Below are positions 10,498-18,492 of a stretch of 64,000 nucleotides of DNA, piece by piece. The notes below the pieces were generated by a model. The model made no database searches. It was not told where the DNA came from and worked only from the letters and a program-made list of their open reading frames with translations. The stretch covers positions 54,760,029 to 54,824,028 of the forward strand of contig OX579633.1 of assembly GCA_951230915.1 (NCBI GenBank), read 5' to 3'. The position numbers and the translations under genes were made by a program. Source of the stretch: Antitrichia curtipendula (Eukaryota > Streptophyta > Bryopsida > Hypnales > Leucodontaceae). Each line of letters opens with the position of its first letter. Positions within the stretch are counted from its first letter, which is position 1.

Positions 10498-10864
10498 TGT
10501 TGAGTTCAGGAATAAACGAGCTATGGTGAGTGAGTGTCAGCATCGAGATAAGAGGAGCGTAGAATGAGAGCGTAAACTGTGAACTGTGTTTCCCTGTGGA
10601 GAATACCGTTAATATATTTAGTAACGGCAGGTGGTTACATCCCGTAAGGGTGGTCGGTACAGGTAGTGGGGCGGCCACTTAGATCCATCCTGCCTAGGCT
10701 ACTACGTCAGGCTAGTGTGTGAGTACAAGTACGACTCGTGTGGTTGGGGTTACGCGGCCGTGTAGGACAACGGTACGTGTCCCGCACCTGTACACTAGAG
10801 TCGTGTTGGCACCCGGGAGTTGGCCGCGAGGGCGCTGAAGTTTGAATAGGACATTCTTCTAACA
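10498..10864 (-). repeat. Copia 3' LTR, 367 bp
   Basis: Complete LTR with TG...CA ends on the minus strand, flanked outside by CCCAG. A TATA-like TAAATATA lies near 10610-10618 on the minus strand, plausibly the U3 promoter. A purine-rich tract (GAGGAGGAG on the minus strand, 10865-10873) next to the LTR fits the polypurine primer for plus-strand DNA synthesis. The shared 158 bp differ from the 5' LTR stub at about 7 positions. Confidence 0.9.
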
Positions 10865-10931
10865 CTCCTCCTCGACCGAGGGGCCATCTCGTTAAAAACT
10901 TCTAAATTGGAAAAACCCTGTGGGAAAAATC

Positions 10932-13900
10932 CTACTTAGAAGAAAAGAGTATGGCGCGGGTGGATACATCACGTAGTGTCTTCATGCCGGCTACTCCTAC
11001 AAGTTGCTTCAGCTTGTATGATGGCAGCGCCTTTGTGAGCATGTCAGCTATGTTTCGGGCGGATTCGATCTTCCGTACTGAAATCTGCCCAGATTCGGTG
11101 AGGTCTTGGGTGAAACCGAAAATCTGTGGGCTGATGTGCTTGGTTCGGTCAGCTTTGATAAATCCGCTAGAAACTTGGGCCACGCACGCTGCGTTGTCTT
11201 CAAAGATCGTTGTCGGCCTGACTTCGAGGCGTAGGTCGCAGCTCCCGTTCAGCGTCGCTTCTAAGGTCCGTAGCCAAACTGCGTCTCGTGTTGCTTCGTG
11301 GAATGCCAGAAGCTCCGCATGGTTTGTTGAAGTTGCCGTTACAGTTTGTTTAACTGATTTCCAGGAGATTGGTGCTCCGTTCTTCAAGAAAATATAGCCG
11401 GTCTGGGATTTTCCTGAGGCTTCATCGGTTCTGAATCCGGAGTTGGTGTAGCCGGTGATGTGTGGCGCCGCGGCTCGTTGGTAGTGGAGCCCGAGGTCCT
11501 CGGTGCCGCGGAGGTAGCGGAGGAGATGCTTCACGCTGCACCAGTGCTTCAAGCACGGCTTTTGGCTGTGACGTGCCAGTACCGACGTTGCAAACGCGAT
11601 GTCTGGTCTCGTGTGCGTTGCTAGGTAAATTAGAGCCCCAATTGCGGTGAGGTACTTGGACTTATCCATTTCCTCCTCCTCCTTGCCGCAAGGGGTGTAA
11701 GGATCGTCTCCCGTCCGACTCCGCCCGATCATGGGCGCGGACAGTGGGTTGGCGAAGTCCATGTTGAAGGACTTAAGGAGCTTTTTCGTGTAAGCTTCTT
11801 GGTGTAACAATATGCTCCCATCTGGGAGGTGACATATCTGCAATCCTAAGCAGTATGTGGTTCTTCCTAATAATTTCATTTCGAATGTGGTGGTAAGTAG
11901 TCTTTCTGCGTGTGTGCAAGCTAGTGGAGTACCGATCAGGTTGAGATCGTCCACATAGACTGCAATTATCACAAAGCCGGTGGTGTTCCGGGACGTGAAT
12001 AAGCAAGGTAGTGCGTCATGATATTTAAACTCGTTTTTGAGCAAAAATGCCCGCAGGTGGTGGTACCATGTCCGCCCTGCCTGCTTTAAGCCATAAAGGG
12101 CTTTTTGGAGTTTTAGTCCATTGTATCGGCCTGGCATTTCAGGGATTAAATTCGATGCATAATCAGGTGGGGGTTTGATGTACAGCTGCGTGTCTAGATC
12201 ACCGTAAAAGTAAGCGGTGACCACGTCAAGCAGGCGCGTTTCAAGCGCAAGGTGTACTGCTAGACTTAGTAAGTATCTGAATGAGGTGCTATCCATAACG
12301 GGGGAATACGTCTGATCGAAGTCTATTCCTGGGTGTTGGCTAAAGCCTTGTGCCATAAGACAGACTTTAAATCTGATGACCTCGTGTTTCTCGTTTCTTT
12401 TCTTGGTGAATATTAGCTTGAATCCTATTGGTTTGGTTGTCAGGTTTGTTGCTAGCGGGCCAAAGACGTGCCGCTTTTTGAGCAATGCGTATTCAGCTTC
12501 AAGTGCAGATCGCCAATTGGGCCAGTTGGCACTAGCCTTAGCCTCATCTAAGGAGGTTGGGTCTGATTCGTCATAGCTAGTGGCGAAGGCGCATGTGACT
12601 GATTCTGGTTTGTTATGCTGAAGCGGCCGCGGCAACTTGGAGGGCGTCGTTGTGGTGGCTTGCTTTTGTTTTCTAGGTTGCGATGCTGGAAGGGAGTTGC
12701 TAGTTCCTGGTAGCGGGTTACGTATGATACGCGGTCCGGTACTAAAGCCATCGGGAATTTTATTTGCTACTGACTGAAGATGCAGAAGTTTGGCTACTTC
12801 TGTTTCTCCTAGCGATGTACGCGGATCCAGGTTACGGGTGAGCGTTTCTGGTGCTCTAAAGTTTACTGATGAATCTGGTTGTTTGTGTGTAAGCAACGGG
12901 AACTTGTTTTCTACAAATTTACAGTTGTTGAACCTGGCTCTGAGTATCGTTCCTGTCTTTGGGACTAGATAGCGGATTATGCTAGGGGAATTGAAGCCTA
13001 GGTAGAGGCCTTCTTCTCTATGAACGCTGACTGTTTTCATGCTAGGTTCGGGTACAGGTACCCAAACCTGGCAAGCGAACACTCGCAGGTGTGAGATATT
13101 CGGCACTCTACCAGAGAGCAATTCTAAGGGAGTCTGGGTATTCAGTAAGGTTGGGCGCAGCCTTAGCAGGGTCGCGGCGTGCAACACGGCGTGGCCCCAC
13201 ATTGAGGCTGGTGATTTGGCATGAATTAAAAGAGGTATAGTGATAAGCTGGACCTTTTTAATGAATGCCTCGGCTAAGCCATTTTGAGCGTGTTCGTAAG
13301 GAACCGAGTATGTTAACTCTATTCTTGTTGCTACACAGTAATCTTCGAACGCATGAGATCTAAATTCTTGTGCGTTATCCATTCTCAGAAACTTGACTGG
13401 AGTTTCAGGAGAATGGTTTCGAAATTTTATTAGCATTGCAAGCAATTTCGGGAAAACCATGTTTTGAGTTGTAAGTAAGGAAACCTCCGCGTGTGACCCG
13501 AAGGCGTCTATTAAAACAAGAAAGTATCGGAACTGACCTGCTGGTGGTGTGATGGGCCCGCACACGTCGCCGTGGAGTTGATGTAGCGGTGGCGGGAGCT
13601 CCAGCGGCAGTTTCCATTGCGAAGGGCGCTTCACATATTTTCCTTGTACGCAAGCGTCACACGTTGGGATCTTGTCTGCATCGCTGGTGCAGACCGTGTG
13701 CCCTTGCAGGATTGGCAACATCCGCCGGAAGCGCGTGGTTCCGGGATGTCCCAGCCTCTGGTGCCACATCTCGGCTTTCTCAGAGGTAACCATGAAGGTC
13801 GCGGTCCTTGGACCGGACGAGTTGCGTGCCCCAGTCGCGGGGCTCATCCTTCGCGTGGCGTTGCTAACTCCCTCATCGTCATAAGCAACGTGGCTACTCG

Positions 13901-14454
13901 CGTTTGATTTTATGGCAAGTTCGTATAGGCCGTTGGCTCCTGCCGCGGCAGTGGCGAGGGACCGCCGCCCCTGCTTGAGCTCCAGTGCCTCCTCACAATT
14001 TTCCATCCTAGTGGAAACGTGGATACCTTGTGCCCGAAGGTCTCTGTAGCTGATCAGGCTACGAGGGGCATCGGGAGCAAACATTGCTCCCTCACATTGG
14101 AGGGTGAATCCTCCCGGCAATACGATTGTCGTCCGGCCCTCTCTGAAGCGAAAGCTTCTTGTCCCAGCGATTGTGACTAAATCACAGGTGCGCCATGGGG
14201 TATTCAGATTCTTGAAAAATTTCTCATTTCTCAAGATCGTGTGTGTGGATGCGCTATCGAGCAAGGCTCGTTCAGCGCTAGTGGGCAGCGTCTCTGCGCT
14301 GATCATGTAATTTTCTGGACTTAGGTCCGTGAATGATGGTGCGTCGAGGGTGTATACCTCTCGCGTCTCACCTTTAAGTCTTTGTAGTTCTTTATACATT
14401 TCTATGAAATAGCTAGGTGTCCTACATTCTTTCGCAAAATGGCCCTTTCGTACT
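10932..14454 (-). CDS. Copia pol polyprotein (PR-INT-RT-RH), 5' truncated
   Basis: The open frame continues right to an ATG at 14684, but the first 76 codons come from inserted DNA; true Copia sequence starts near residue 78. Using that 1250-residue frame: zinc-knuckle remnant RKGHFAKEC (79-87, first CxxC lost); protease LLDSAST (D143); GAG-pre-integrase MWHQRLGHPG (306-315); integrase catalytic D373, D436 and E472; reverse transcriptase 700-960 with YVDD at 910-913; RNase H 1075-1225. No stop interrupts pol. In RNase H the usual first catalytic Asp appears as Asn (GYTNSGF, N1081), while E1124 and D1163 are kept. It would make and integrate cDNA if intact, but gag is gone and the frame now begins in foreign DNA. 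Confidence 0.93.
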
Positions 14455-14607
14455 AGAGAAGCTTCCGCCACATGCGGATTCTGCAGTGTGGTGAGGCTGT
14501 TGGCGAGCATGCGGATTCTGCAGTGTGGTGAGGCTGTTGGCGAGCCCGGAGGGCGAGCCAGCTGGCCGAACCACATTGCAGAATCCGCATGTGGCGGAAG
14601 CTTCTCT
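14455..14607. mobile_element. 153-bp hairpin element between Copia and recombinase element
   Basis: The ends AGAGAAGCTTCCGCCACATG and CATGTGGCGGAAGCTTCTCT are perfect inverted repeats, and the pairing extends inward through GCGGATTCTGCA to about 36 bp. A 37-bp block (14472-14508) is repeated exactly at 14509-14545. The hairpin abuts the Copia zinc-knuckle codons on one side and lies 2 bp from the terminal repeat of the recombinase element on the other. It carries the GATTCTGC core found in that element's ends, so it may be a small relative mobilised by the same recombinase (inference). Confidence 0.75.
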
Positions 14608-14761
14608 GGCGTTAAAAGTTGGGAAGTACGATTCTGCATACGGGATGGGACCGTATAATACGGAGATTGAAAATTTCCTTTCAAGTTTTGTTAATATCTC
14701 CGTGAAGAAGTTTTGCTTTCAATTTAGTTTGTTTCTTCTTGTTTTATGCTGATCGTCAACG

Positions 14762-16907
14762 ATGATGTCAAGTAACCGTATTCCATTGAAGGATTTGTCT
14801 AATGCTATCGCAATTACACCTGCGATTTTGGCGTCAGGTGCGGTGAACCTTGGCGAACCAACGGAGGAGCTTCACATTGATAACATTGTTTCTGAGTCTA
14901 TTTCACAAGATCCCGGGGGTTTCTGGCGCATTTCTGGTGAACATAGTGTTGTTGGAGCGATTGATCCAATCGAGGATCCTCTTTGGCTTGTTGATGGAGA
15001 AGTCGCTGATATCTTAAGAGGCGAGGTAGATATTTTTGAGATTTCATCAGATGCGACTCCAATTGATGTTAAAGTTCTTGAGCCAACTTCTGACGCCGCT
15101 TTGGAATATCTTCGGAAAGGCTTTAGGCAGCTTGAGAAGGAAGAGGTTGATATTGTTGCCAAAGGTGGTCACAGGAAGTCTGTATATCTTGATACCTGGG
15201 CTCGTAACCGATTTAACGATTGGAGGAACATTTCTGGCATCAACAGCCAAGATACTATTGAAGACATGTTCGAGAATTCATGTGCCTTATTGAATGAGCA
15301 ACTGTCAACATTTTTCCTTCAAGTCCAACGTAGAGATGGAAAGCTATACCCCGGTGAAACGCTTGTAGGACTTTTGCGAGCTATTGGCCGAATCATCCGT
15401 GCGAGATGTTGCCAGAGAAGCGTAGAGACTTCCAAACCTCAAGAGGAGTTTTATATTTTGGAGGATCCTCGGTTTACAAAAGCATGTGTTGCGTGCATTA
15501 CATCGGCACAACGTGCAGGAAAGGCTGGTGTAGGACGTAAACGAAGAGTTACTGCAGCACTCACTCCTGAGCAGGATGCTAAAATCTTAGCCCAAGCTTT
15601 TATGTCCAGATCAGACAGGCGTGGTTGTCAACTCCGACTAGCCTTCTACATTAGTGTGAATTTTTGCGTGAGAGCTCAACAAGAATTGTATAATCTGTGT
15701 GACATTGATTTTGAGTTTTCTGAGGATCGCTTTGGCAGATTCATTCGATTTGATGAGAGATCATCTAAAAACCACAAGATCGATCTTAAGCATTGTCAAC
15801 CTGAGAAACTACGGCGTCCAGTTGTATGCTACTTACCAGATGTGGTCTTGACTTTTGATACTTACTTTGCACACCTCCCTAAGTGGCTTCCTAATGAGCC
15901 AAGGCCTCATCCGTTATTCTTGCGACCAATAGATGGCATCCTACGCAATCCCGGGGTTGTAAGTCTTTCAATTTTGTGTTTCTTATTTTTTGCTTTAAAA
16001 TCATGTGTAGTAATTGGTAGATCCAGTTCATTACGATTTTGCTCTTCTGAATATGTAGATGATTTAATTTTCTATATTGATTGGTTGTTTCCCTTCATGT
16101 GATGATTGATTTTTTTTTTTATTATGTTTGAAGTGGTACTCCAAATCTCGCGTTGGAGTAAAGACTGTTTCAAAGTGGCTGAAGCAAATGGTGCAAGACA
16201 TTCCAGGTTGTGATGTTGGATGCTTCTCCAATAAGACTGCTCGGGTTACCACTGTTAGCCGCTTGAATGCTATGGGAGTGCCAGCCGAAATAGGAATGAA
16301 GCTCACCGGACACAATTCTCGAGAAGGTTATATGCGCTACAATACAGACGAAGATGGAATAGAAATGCGTGCTCTCCAAAATGTAGCCAGTGCAGTCTAT
16401 GGTACCGGTGGTGATATTTCTTGGCAAGCAGCTCTCAATTACGAGCGGCAAAGATTTTATCAGGCTCAAAACAAGCCATCTCAGTTGATTGAGCCTTTAC
16501 TGTTAGATTCTTCTTCAATATGTGACATTGGAGATGTATCTAAGATTGTTGTTGACGAGGATCATGCAACGCGTGCTCCACTTATTCAAGCATCTGGAAT
16601 TGTTGTCGACCAGGATAATGCAATGCGTGGTCAACTAATTCGAGCATCTGATGTGAATAGCAAGCGCCAGATGATTGACGAAGACGATTGGTGGTCCAAT
16701 TCTAATGTTCAGCAAGAGATTGAAGCCCTAATTACGTCCAAGAAGCAGAAAGTTGAAATTTCTCGTGTTAAAAACATCGGTAATGTCAGCAATGTATTCA
16801 ATGGGAATATCAGTAATTGTACTATTCAATTGAATATTCCAGATGCAGCCTCAGCAACAGCACTTTTCAACTCTTTATCGAGCATCAAGAACGATTCACA
16901 GCAATGA
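14762..16907 (+). CDS. Crypton-like tyrosine recombinase, two exons
   Basis: Exons 14762-15958 and 16134-16907 join in phase 0 to give 656 aa ending in TGA. The N-terminal domain (about 125-250) resembles the DUF3504/ZMYM-type recombinase core-binding region (WARNRFNDWR, RRDGKLYPGETL). Catalytic candidates: R304 (NFCVRAQQEL), K433 and R436 (SNKTAR, the HxxR box with Lys for His), H459 (LTGH) and Y468 (MRYN), nine residues after H459 as usual. The splice joins PGV to WYSKSRVGV, the motif expected before the C-terminal catalytic half. An imperfect tandem repeat (IVVDEDHATRAPLIQAS, IVVDQDNAMRGQLIRAS) and a C-terminal SNCTIQLNI follow; similar NCTI-type tails occur in related eukaryotic proteins. 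All key residues are present, so the enzyme may be active. It would cut and join its own element ends without a DDE reaction. Confidence 0.88.
15959..16133 (+). other. Intron of the tyrosine recombinase gene
   Basis: The donor GTAAGT at 15959 fits the consensus. The acceptor TTTGAAG at 16133 follows a long T tract. The intron is 175 bp, phase 0. Removing it restores the conserved GVWYSKS junction, which supports the boundaries. Confidence 0.9.
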
Positions 16908-17060
16908 AATAGATTTAGTGAGATGAGTTCAAAGGATTGGAGTCAATGATACATTTAGTAAGATCAATTCAAAGCCATGATGGATTTATTGAGACGATTC
17001 AAAGCCATGGTAGAATTAGTGAGACGATTTGAACAATGATAGATTTAGTGAGAACCATTC
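16908..17060. repeat. Tandem ~30-bp repeat in recombinase 3' region
   Basis: Five imperfect copies of a unit like AATGATAGATTTAGTGAGA plus CGATTCAAAGCC follow the stop codon directly. Spacing is about 28-38 bp. Role unknown; it could be a 3' UTR repeat or subterminal recombinase-binding array. Confidence 0.7.
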
Positions 17061-17308
17061 CAAACTGTGTAAGAGATTTGAAGTGGCCAAGGCTTTTGCA
17101 GTCACAATTTAATAATTGTGAACTTAAAAGCTATGTGAATTTTTGTGATTAGTTGTATTGTACTTTGGATGTTTTACTTTAAGCTTTGGTTTTGATTCGT
17201 GATTGGGACCACGGTGATTGAATTTCAAGGATGAGAAGCTTTTATTACACAAAGTTGATATAGAATATTTGTTCACCGTCATTGTGACACAATTAAAAAA
17301 ATTCAAAT

Positions 17309-17370
17309 GGCAGTTGTGCGGCAGAATCGGCAGGGCCGGCCGATTCTGCCTCACAACTGCCGATTTTGCC
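17309..17370. repeat. Right-end hairpin of the recombinase element
   Basis: GGCAGTTGTG, C, GGCAGAATCGGC pairs with GCCGATTCTGCC, T, CACAACTGCC around a 4-nt GC-rich loop. A further GATTTTGCC follows. The GATTCTGCC core occurs in both arms and again in the terminal repeat at 17396-17405, so this end carries three or four copies of one motif. Confidence 0.8.
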
Positions 17371-17420
17371 AAAAATATTGACATGGAAAAAGGCAGAATC
17401 GGACTTCCCGACTTTTAACG

Positions 17421-17578
17421 TAAGGCCAGTGTGTGAGTACAAGTACGACTCGTGTGGTTGGGGTAACGCGGCCGTGTAGGACAACGGTGCGTGTCTCGCA
17501 CCTGTACACTAGAGCCGTGTTGGCACCCGGGAGTTGGCCGCGAGGGCGCTGAAGTTCGAATAGGACATTCTTCTAACA
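17421..17578 (-). repeat. Truncated Copia 5' LTR
   Basis: The first 158 bp (minus strand, from TGTTAGAAGAATG) of the 5' LTR, ending at the recombinase element. Outside lies CCCAG (17579-17583), matching the far side of the 3' LTR. Homology to the 3' LTR runs to ACGTAAGGCC at the junction, where ACG is shared with the end of the recombinase element. Confidence 0.9.
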
Positions 17579-17583
17579 CCCAG

Positions 17584-17812: not shown

Positions 17813-18492
17813 TTAACCCTTAAACGCTCCCTGGGAACCGTACATACGCTGATGTATAAGTGTTGTTTGCTACTAATTAGAAATTTCAATTTGGGATTTC
17901 AAGTAGCTCACTAGAACCGCATTGATCTATTCTCCAATTTCTTTGTTGGTCTCAAATGTAATAGAGGTGTCAATCCACTTCAAATACAAGAAAAATACCC
18001 CGTATTGTACTGGTCGCAAAGGGTCATTGAAACGTTTAGGGGTTAAACGTCCCTAGGAAACCGTACATACGCTGACGTATGAGTGTCACTTGATAGCGAT
18101 AAGAAATTTTAATTTGGGATCACAAGTAGCTCACTAGAACCACATTGATCTATTCTTCAACTTCTTTGTTGGTCTCAAATGTAGTAGAGGTGTCAATCCA
18201 TTCCAAATACACAGAAAATACCCTATATTGTATTGGTTGCAGCAGCAGGCTGGGACGTTTAAGGGTTAAACGACGAGAGGGCATTGTATATACACTGCTG
18301 TATAATGGGCCTTTGCTACCAATAAAAAGTTGTAATTTGGGATCTCAAATAGCTCACTATGTCTGCATGGATCTACTCTCCAACTTCTTTGTTGATCTCA
18401 AATATAATAAAGGTGTGAATACACTCCAAATACAAAAAAAAAACATTATATTACATTAGTTGCAAAGGGTTGCCTTGTCGTTTAGAGGTTAA
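17813..18492. repeat. Tandem array of three 230-bp TTAA elements (family A)
   Basis: Units 17813-18046, 18043-18269 and 18266-18492 are in the same orientation and share the TTAA at each junction. Outer ends are TTAACCCTTAAACG and GTTTAGAGGTTAA. Each unit holds CGTACATACGCTGA-like and GTAGCTCACTAGAACC-like blocks. Single copies occur at 29133, 52495, 53981 and 54370. Inner junctions lack the CCCTTAA start, as if joined at the second TTAA of the terminus. Confidence 0.85.

Follow-up and report, generated by a model that had tools for sequence, protein, structure and literature searches.

An internal region complementary to both termini and a DIRS1-like end plan in a tyrosine recombinase element of the moss Antitrichia curtipendula

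The stretch of DNA analysed here (the window, 64,000 nucleotides of the A. curtipendula contig OX579633.1) contains a tyrosine recombinase (YR) gene lying between two inverted arms, which raises the question of whether an element of Crypton type is bounded in this moss by terminal inverted repeats (TIRs), as a sequence-only reading of the window had proposed. The arms do exist. Of the 28 nucleotides in 14610-14637, 26 are complementary to 17393-17420, and a search with the 18 nt at the start of the left arm, allowing up to 3 mismatches, matched the window at the two arm sites only (in 100 shuffles the mean was 0.13 matches and 2 were never reached). In the available part of PMC3212892, Cryptons are described as having neither TIRs nor long direct repeats; fungal and oomycete groups show direct repeats of 4-6 bp, and terminal repeats were not found in animal Cryptons. 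Their listed hosts are animals, fungi, oomycetes and a diatom, and DUF3504 is reported there as derived from Crypton YRs.

The gene between the arms was confirmed as an intact two-exon YR gene with an open frame of 656 amino acids on the forward strand. Exon 1 (14762-15958, amino acids 1-399, with a homologue in P0001) contains R304; an intron of 175 nt with GT...AG borders (15959-16133) follows, and exon 2 (16134-16907, amino acids 400-656 and the stop codon) contains K433, R436, H459 and Y468, residues that were compared across relatives. The protein shows the YR catalytic pattern R...K/H-x-x-R...H...Y, and the C-terminal motif N, K, R, H, Y is invariant in the 6 aligned members of the family. 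The Pfam domain DUF3504 remained below the cut-off for the window protein (E 0.0018) and for the liverwort protein P0002 (E 0.00084). A profile built from 6 family members matched 14 proteins. Two of them come from the liverwort Riccia sorocarpa (P0002, a complete-looking YR, and the shorter P0007) and three, all fragments, from the lycophyte Diphasiastrum complanatum; another, P0014 (E 1.2e-7), combines a DUF3504 with a phage-integrase domain. Judged by these sequence matches, the recombinase is probably kin to the Crypton/DUF3504 recombinases, as the earlier reading had supposed. A Cre-like YR fold may be ascribed to the element family on the structural basis of a weak AF2 model of P0002 (mean pLDDT 53.6), with which the best 18 Foldseek matches were Cre or Tre and the 19th was the Tn1549 integrase; PDB sequence searches returned kinesin KIF20A chains only (E 0.017, 0.53 and 0.17). 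An in-frame 54-bp tandem repeat (two copies, 18 amino acids) was also observed in exon 2, at 16545-16650.

No frame of reverse transcriptase (RT) size was seen outside the YR gene when the frames of four elements were listed, in agreement with the single-gene, RT-free description given before. The longest frames outside the YR exons of the window element are of 96-108 amino acids, on the opposite strand, and its largest stretch outside the exons measures 512 bp (16908-17419). Among frames of at least 160 amino acids in the loci L075-L078, L042, L051 and L052, none was RT-like by eye. The intron is kept in all four copies that include this part of the gene and is absent at this place in a related clade (L030, L034, L036 and L042), which could reflect an RNA step in that clade. 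Its retention in four of four copies and the unseen RT-sized frame both favour movement as DNA. In L075, a more distant YR at 21.8 Mb on C9 with a 136-bp hairpin upstream, a frame on the opposite strand that resembles a Tc1/mariner transposase, judged by eye, overlaps the 3' part of the YR gene.

The boundaries of the element were examined through its copies, using 14610-17420 as query against the genome (400 Mb, 303 contigs). The 31 matches comprised 3 full-length copies (the window copy included), a copy named C2t covering query bases 878-2811, 4 short copies consisting of bases 1-80 and 2682-2811, and more distant or partial matches. The close copies are thus eight: three of full length, C2t with an internal deletion, and four short derivatives of 334 bp. 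Seven of these eight continue past the 28-bp left arm, by 160 bp in the window copy and by 123 bp in the six others, and for this reason the left arm has to be rejected as the left bound of the element; homology reaching past an arm is one of the findings that the earlier reading had itself named as refuting its proposal. The remaining copy, C2t, starts at the outer left end of the others, and its internal deletion has taken out the arm at 14610-14637. The difference between 160 and 123 bp is due to a perfect tandem duplication of 37 bp (14471-14545) in the hairpin loop, found in the window copy alone, the left hairpin region of the six others being 37 bp shorter. The whole element spans 14450-17419 on the forward strand (2970 bp), starts with GTACTAGAG and finishes with TTTTAAC (the right terminus reads ...CTTTTAAC), the G at 17420 being assigned to the target. 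These outer ends are common to all eight close copies, whose flanks differ, and one empty site, that of C2t, was found. The locus is therefore a mobile element, as had been claimed, and the proposed check by shared ends with varied flanks held at the outer ends; the right arm coincides with the true right end and the left one was misplaced by 160 bp. Of about 2932 sites, 11-14 differ between full copies, and a pair of short copies from separate contigs is identical across 334 bp; the YR frame is open in the window and C1 copies and has a stop at codon 261 in the C9 copy. The element family is young and recently active.

The sequence between the outer left end and the gene explains what the left arm is. 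From left to right, the element consists of the left end A (14450-14497, an invariant GTA followed by an arm), a loop, the segment a' (14565-14607), the dinucleotide GG, the segment b' (14610-14637, the former left TIR), the gene, and the right end B (17393-17419). An inverted-repeat search showed that a' is the reverse complement of A (40 of 43 positions) and b' that of B (26 of 28). The whole segment a'b' (14565-14637) therefore corresponds, in reverse complement, to B followed by A, and it will be called the internal complementary region (ICR); this inverted copy stands about 120-160 bp from the joined-end sequence. At its junction the ICR falls 2-3 nt short of the joined genomic ends, the GTA being missing from it, and it is not a perfect complement of a circle junction. 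A long inverted repeat between A and B was not found in the window element by the inverted-repeat search, only the short motif GATTCTGC being shared. A subterminal hairpin with the motif GCAGAATC lies at 17309-17361. The GCAGAATC/GATTCTGC motif occurs 7 times in the 64 kb, always in end regions of the element, and could possibly represent candidate arm sites of the recombinase, to judge from this distribution.

A region of this kind is known from DIRS1-type retrotransposons, in which the ICR consists of a complement of the left end beside a complement of the right end (PMC3266345 and PMC8969392, as far as their accessible text goes). The consulted section of PMC3266345 gives DIRS1-like inverted terminal repeats of 66-316 bp and explains the ICR as aligning the two ends towards a circular (rolling-circle) retrotransposon intermediate. 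The moss element resembles DIRS1-like elements in having an ICR complementary to both termini, a YR gene and a short junction; the one empty site found would also fit the integration without target duplication known from DIRS1-like elements. It differs in that no RT/RNase H or MT frame was seen, in its size (elements of 3.0-3.8 kb), in its ends, which are only weakly inverted to each other (GATTC motif) instead of forming long inverted repeats, and in the window-type ICR, which lies 5' of the gene and does not contain the full GTA of the left end. With Cryptons it shares the YR as sole gene, a probable sequence kinship to Crypton-derived DUF3504 and the short non-autonomous derivatives, and it departs from them by the terminal hairpin and the ICR and by its named relatives, which are land plants. 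The earlier judgement that the end structure falls outside the textbook types was therefore correct, since neither Crypton nor DIRS fits. DIRS ends had been set aside there on account of the absent RT; DIRS-like termini are nevertheless what the element has, and the two arms correspond to its right end and to half of an ICR of DIRS type.

The end plan recurs in related elements. A scan for inverted repeats covered ten other places with YR genes (in 11 rows, as one place appears twice) and found the full plan in three of them, L018, L034 and L030. In L030 it is mirrored relative to the gene, so that the ICR lies 3' of the gene as in DIRS1. A directed search added L019 as a fourth place, in which a change at the junction is matched in the partner (TTAAT with ATTAA). 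Beyond L019, the inverted-repeat scan did not reveal the plan in six of the ten places (L016, L017, L020, L035, L036 and L032, the L032 piece stopping short of its expected right end). Searches for the b' partners of L075, L078 and the L032 piece found none, with scores not above those of shuffles. Among 13 short loci, the left hairpin was present in 12 and the b':B pair also in 10; the pair was not detected in L056 and L059, which have the hairpin only, or in L065, which has neither. Nine more loci were picked for new sequence types among 45 matches to a left-end pattern, and 7 of them have the hairpin, followed directly by the b':B pair in 5. The b':B pairing fails in L071 (9 of 24), and in L072 a second left end interrupts the element. 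Near position 930 of L021, a left end with a nearly loopless hairpin (GTACTAGAGAACCTTCCGC...GCGGAAGGTTCTCTGGCGT) was observed, which may be the folded end reduced to its minimum.

In the more deeply branching L076 (about 35% protein identity), a 129-bp hairpin is followed by GCGTTAAG, which matches the end CTTAACG with a score of 16, the best of 100 shuffles scoring 13. The L076 clade (support 100/100) stands apart in the tree from the window clade (96/96), which holds two Diphasiastrum proteins; tree rows that carry no ICR label were mostly outside the scan and say nothing about absence of the ICR. On this sequence evidence, the DIRS-like end plan appears in two well separated YR clades.

Pairing between the ICR and the ends of the same element was analysed quantitatively. 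In nine families, the mean identity of A was 0.944 with the reverse complement of its own a' and 0.612 with those of other families, the corresponding values for B and b' being 0.838 and 0.583; in a permutation test, 0 of 20000 permutations reached the observed value for either stem. In 16 representatives, some of them from related families, the paired fraction was 0.856 for A:a' (shuffle mean 0.607, maximum 0.726) and 0.797 for b':B (shuffle mean 0.549, maximum 0.685), with the ICR position taken as the best match within the element, a choice that favours the own value. The number of pair types exceeded all 5000 shuffles narrowly (35 versus a maximum of 34 for A:a', 32 versus 30 for b':B). 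In the repeat searches of the window element, the 10 YR places and the 13 short loci, the ICR was located without such a best-match choice. A chance palindrome as origin of the ICR is ruled out by this co-variation with each element's own ends.

Folding was predicted for single DNA strands of three short elements, beginning with the 334-bp derivative. In the predicted structures the A:a' hairpin abuts the b':B stem, and the 5' and 3' ends are set side by side over the ICR; the z values were -19.3, -13.1 and -17.4, and equally stable folds occurred in 0 of 100, 0 of 200 and 0 of 200 shuffles, respectively. The 5' GTA is unpaired in the centroid of the predicted fold, and 6 of the 9 families have a mismatch between T in the reverse complement of b' and G (A in one family) in B. 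Integron integrases acting on attC also use unpaired bases at or near the exchange point, and by analogy attC is alike in offering a YR a site folded from one strand with unpaired bases at the point of exchange. It is unlike in being bacterial, the fold here uniting the two ends of a whole element, and homology is not claimed. The unpaired bases, as at attC, motivate a reading as a folded single strand without proving it.

The sites of integration were compared at 28 junctions. To the right of the element the first base is G in 24 of them (the other 4 lack it) and the second is T in 18; to its left, position -1 holds C or T in 25 junctions and never G, and A or T occupies position -2 in 26. 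The target therefore resembles the junction of the element itself, TTAAC|GTA. One empty site was identified among 32 sites compared within part of the genome sequence: a paralogous repeat of the same locus, 87% identical, runs gaplessly across the joined flanks of C2t and reveals no target duplication. The termini carry no direct repeat other than the G or GT found at either junction. Two further candidates were rejected as empty sites, the joined flanks of L058 matching L016 only with gaps at 68%, which is too weak, and the match of the joined L064 flanks being the locus's own flank. The flanks of the window copy gave no clean empty site. At this locus a minus-strand element, which we take to be Copia-like from its motifs, flanks the YR element at 10704-14449 and 17418-17579; its pol frame ends at about 14450, the frame of the left flank reads like gag, and an LTR copy identical to 10704-10865 at 155 of 162 positions starts at the right junction. 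The Copia-like element lacks most of its gag, and the locus has therefore likely been rearranged.

The left end was also used as a probe of the whole genome. The pattern GTACTAGAGAA-N16-GATTCT matched 45 times, with 0 matches in a reversed control, and the pattern shortened by its GTA matched 71 times; as judged by eye, these 71 included 18 matches to an unrelated AT-rich repeat, 1 stray match and 3 inner copies. The genome contains about 49 left ends, 45 of them starting with GTA, and most elements with both ends placed are 230-370 bp long. From the shared ends we infer that the 334-bp derivatives, which keep the ends and the ICR, would have moved in trans. The near-identical young copies and the derivatives of 263-334 bp constitute a small substrate for testing the role of the ICR.

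These results are best accommodated, with somewhat more than an even chance of being right, by a DNA transposon with a single YR gene of Crypton/DUF3504 type and termini of DIRS1 plan, which circularises, is integrated by its YR at TWAY|GT-like sites and uses the ICR as a splint or folded site. The YR would join B to A in a circle, and the circle would integrate at a short site like its own junction, TWAY|GT, without target duplication; for this integration step, the ends and the target preference are observed and duplication was absent at one site. In a single-stranded copy, A would pair with a' and b' with B, so that in the predicted fold the ends would meet over the ICR as a nicked duplex that could splint them for joining. 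Alternatively, one strand would present the YR with a double-stranded recombination site, as attC does for the integron integrase. Several observations count against the proposal as a whole: the 4 junctions that lack the G, the single and paralogous empty site, the DUF3504 hit below the cut-off, the shortened junction of the ICR, the loci in which the plan or the b':B pair was not found, and the intronless clade. A bolder and rather doubtful form of this proposal is that there is a class of RT-free YR transposons recombining as folded single strands through an attC-like site, that DIRS ends predate RT, and that early land plants keep this stage.

The element could instead descend from a DIRS1-type element that lost RT and MT, kept YR and ICR in their DIRS role, and is still mobilised via RNA by an RT provided in trans. 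The match to the DIRS1 termini in the part of PMC3266345 consulted, including the short junction and the lack of target duplication, would suit such a descent, and an intronless clade exists; it is made unlikely by the intron in all four copies, by the frames, none of them RT-sized or RT-like in the four elements listed or in the loci judged by eye, by the occurrence of the plan in two well separated clades and by the probable kinship of the YR to Crypton/DUF3504. YRs act on paired inverted sites, and Flp flips replication forks on the 2-micron plasmid. An ordinary Crypton-like double-stranded circle would make use of the inverted copy of the joined ends at the distance found, the ICR serving the YR as an additional, inverted junction, for example for fork flipping, or as a regulatory binding site. 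The spacers differ, the genomic ends having about GTACT or GTA and the ICR having GCC, GCT or G, and this mismatch should hinder exchange between them, while a binding site alone leaves the complementarity to the own ends over 24-29 nt unexplained, unless protein specificity differs between families; we hold this explanation to be distinctly improbable. A cut-and-paste transposon with 28-bp TIRs, or a Crypton fused to a DDE element, could appeal to the real inverted arms and to MarCry-1_FO, a Crypton that obtained TIRs by fusion with Mariner (available portion of PMC3212892). The cut-and-paste reading is refuted by the outer ends of the copies, which lie beyond the left arm, C2t even lacking the arm; the one empty site shows no target duplication and the window element has no further long frame, so that either version can hardly be true.

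The preferred reading, of a transposon moving as DNA, bears on the origin of DIRS elements. Poulter and Butler proposed that YR retrotransposons arose from a Crypton and a Gypsy RT/RH (as cited in the accessible part of PMC6681497), and the present element is relevant to this proposal because the DIRS end plan may predate RT, on the DNA side. A co-varying ICR in elements that apparently encode only a recombinase would mean that the ICR is not merely an aid to reverse transcription, and suggests that the DIRS-like end design does not need a reverse transcriptase. Among plants, DIRS had been found only in green algae until the time of PMC9033089, according to its available text. Within the accessible portions of the open-access literature searched, neither a YR-only element with an ICR nor a bryophyte Crypton was recognised.

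Other features were observed in the window. A 223-bp unit is repeated 2.8 times at 17820-18441, with more copies at about 29.1 kb and at 52.5-54.6 kb. A frame of 796 amino acids at 43-2433 has a middle part that resembles the dimerisation region of hAT transposases.
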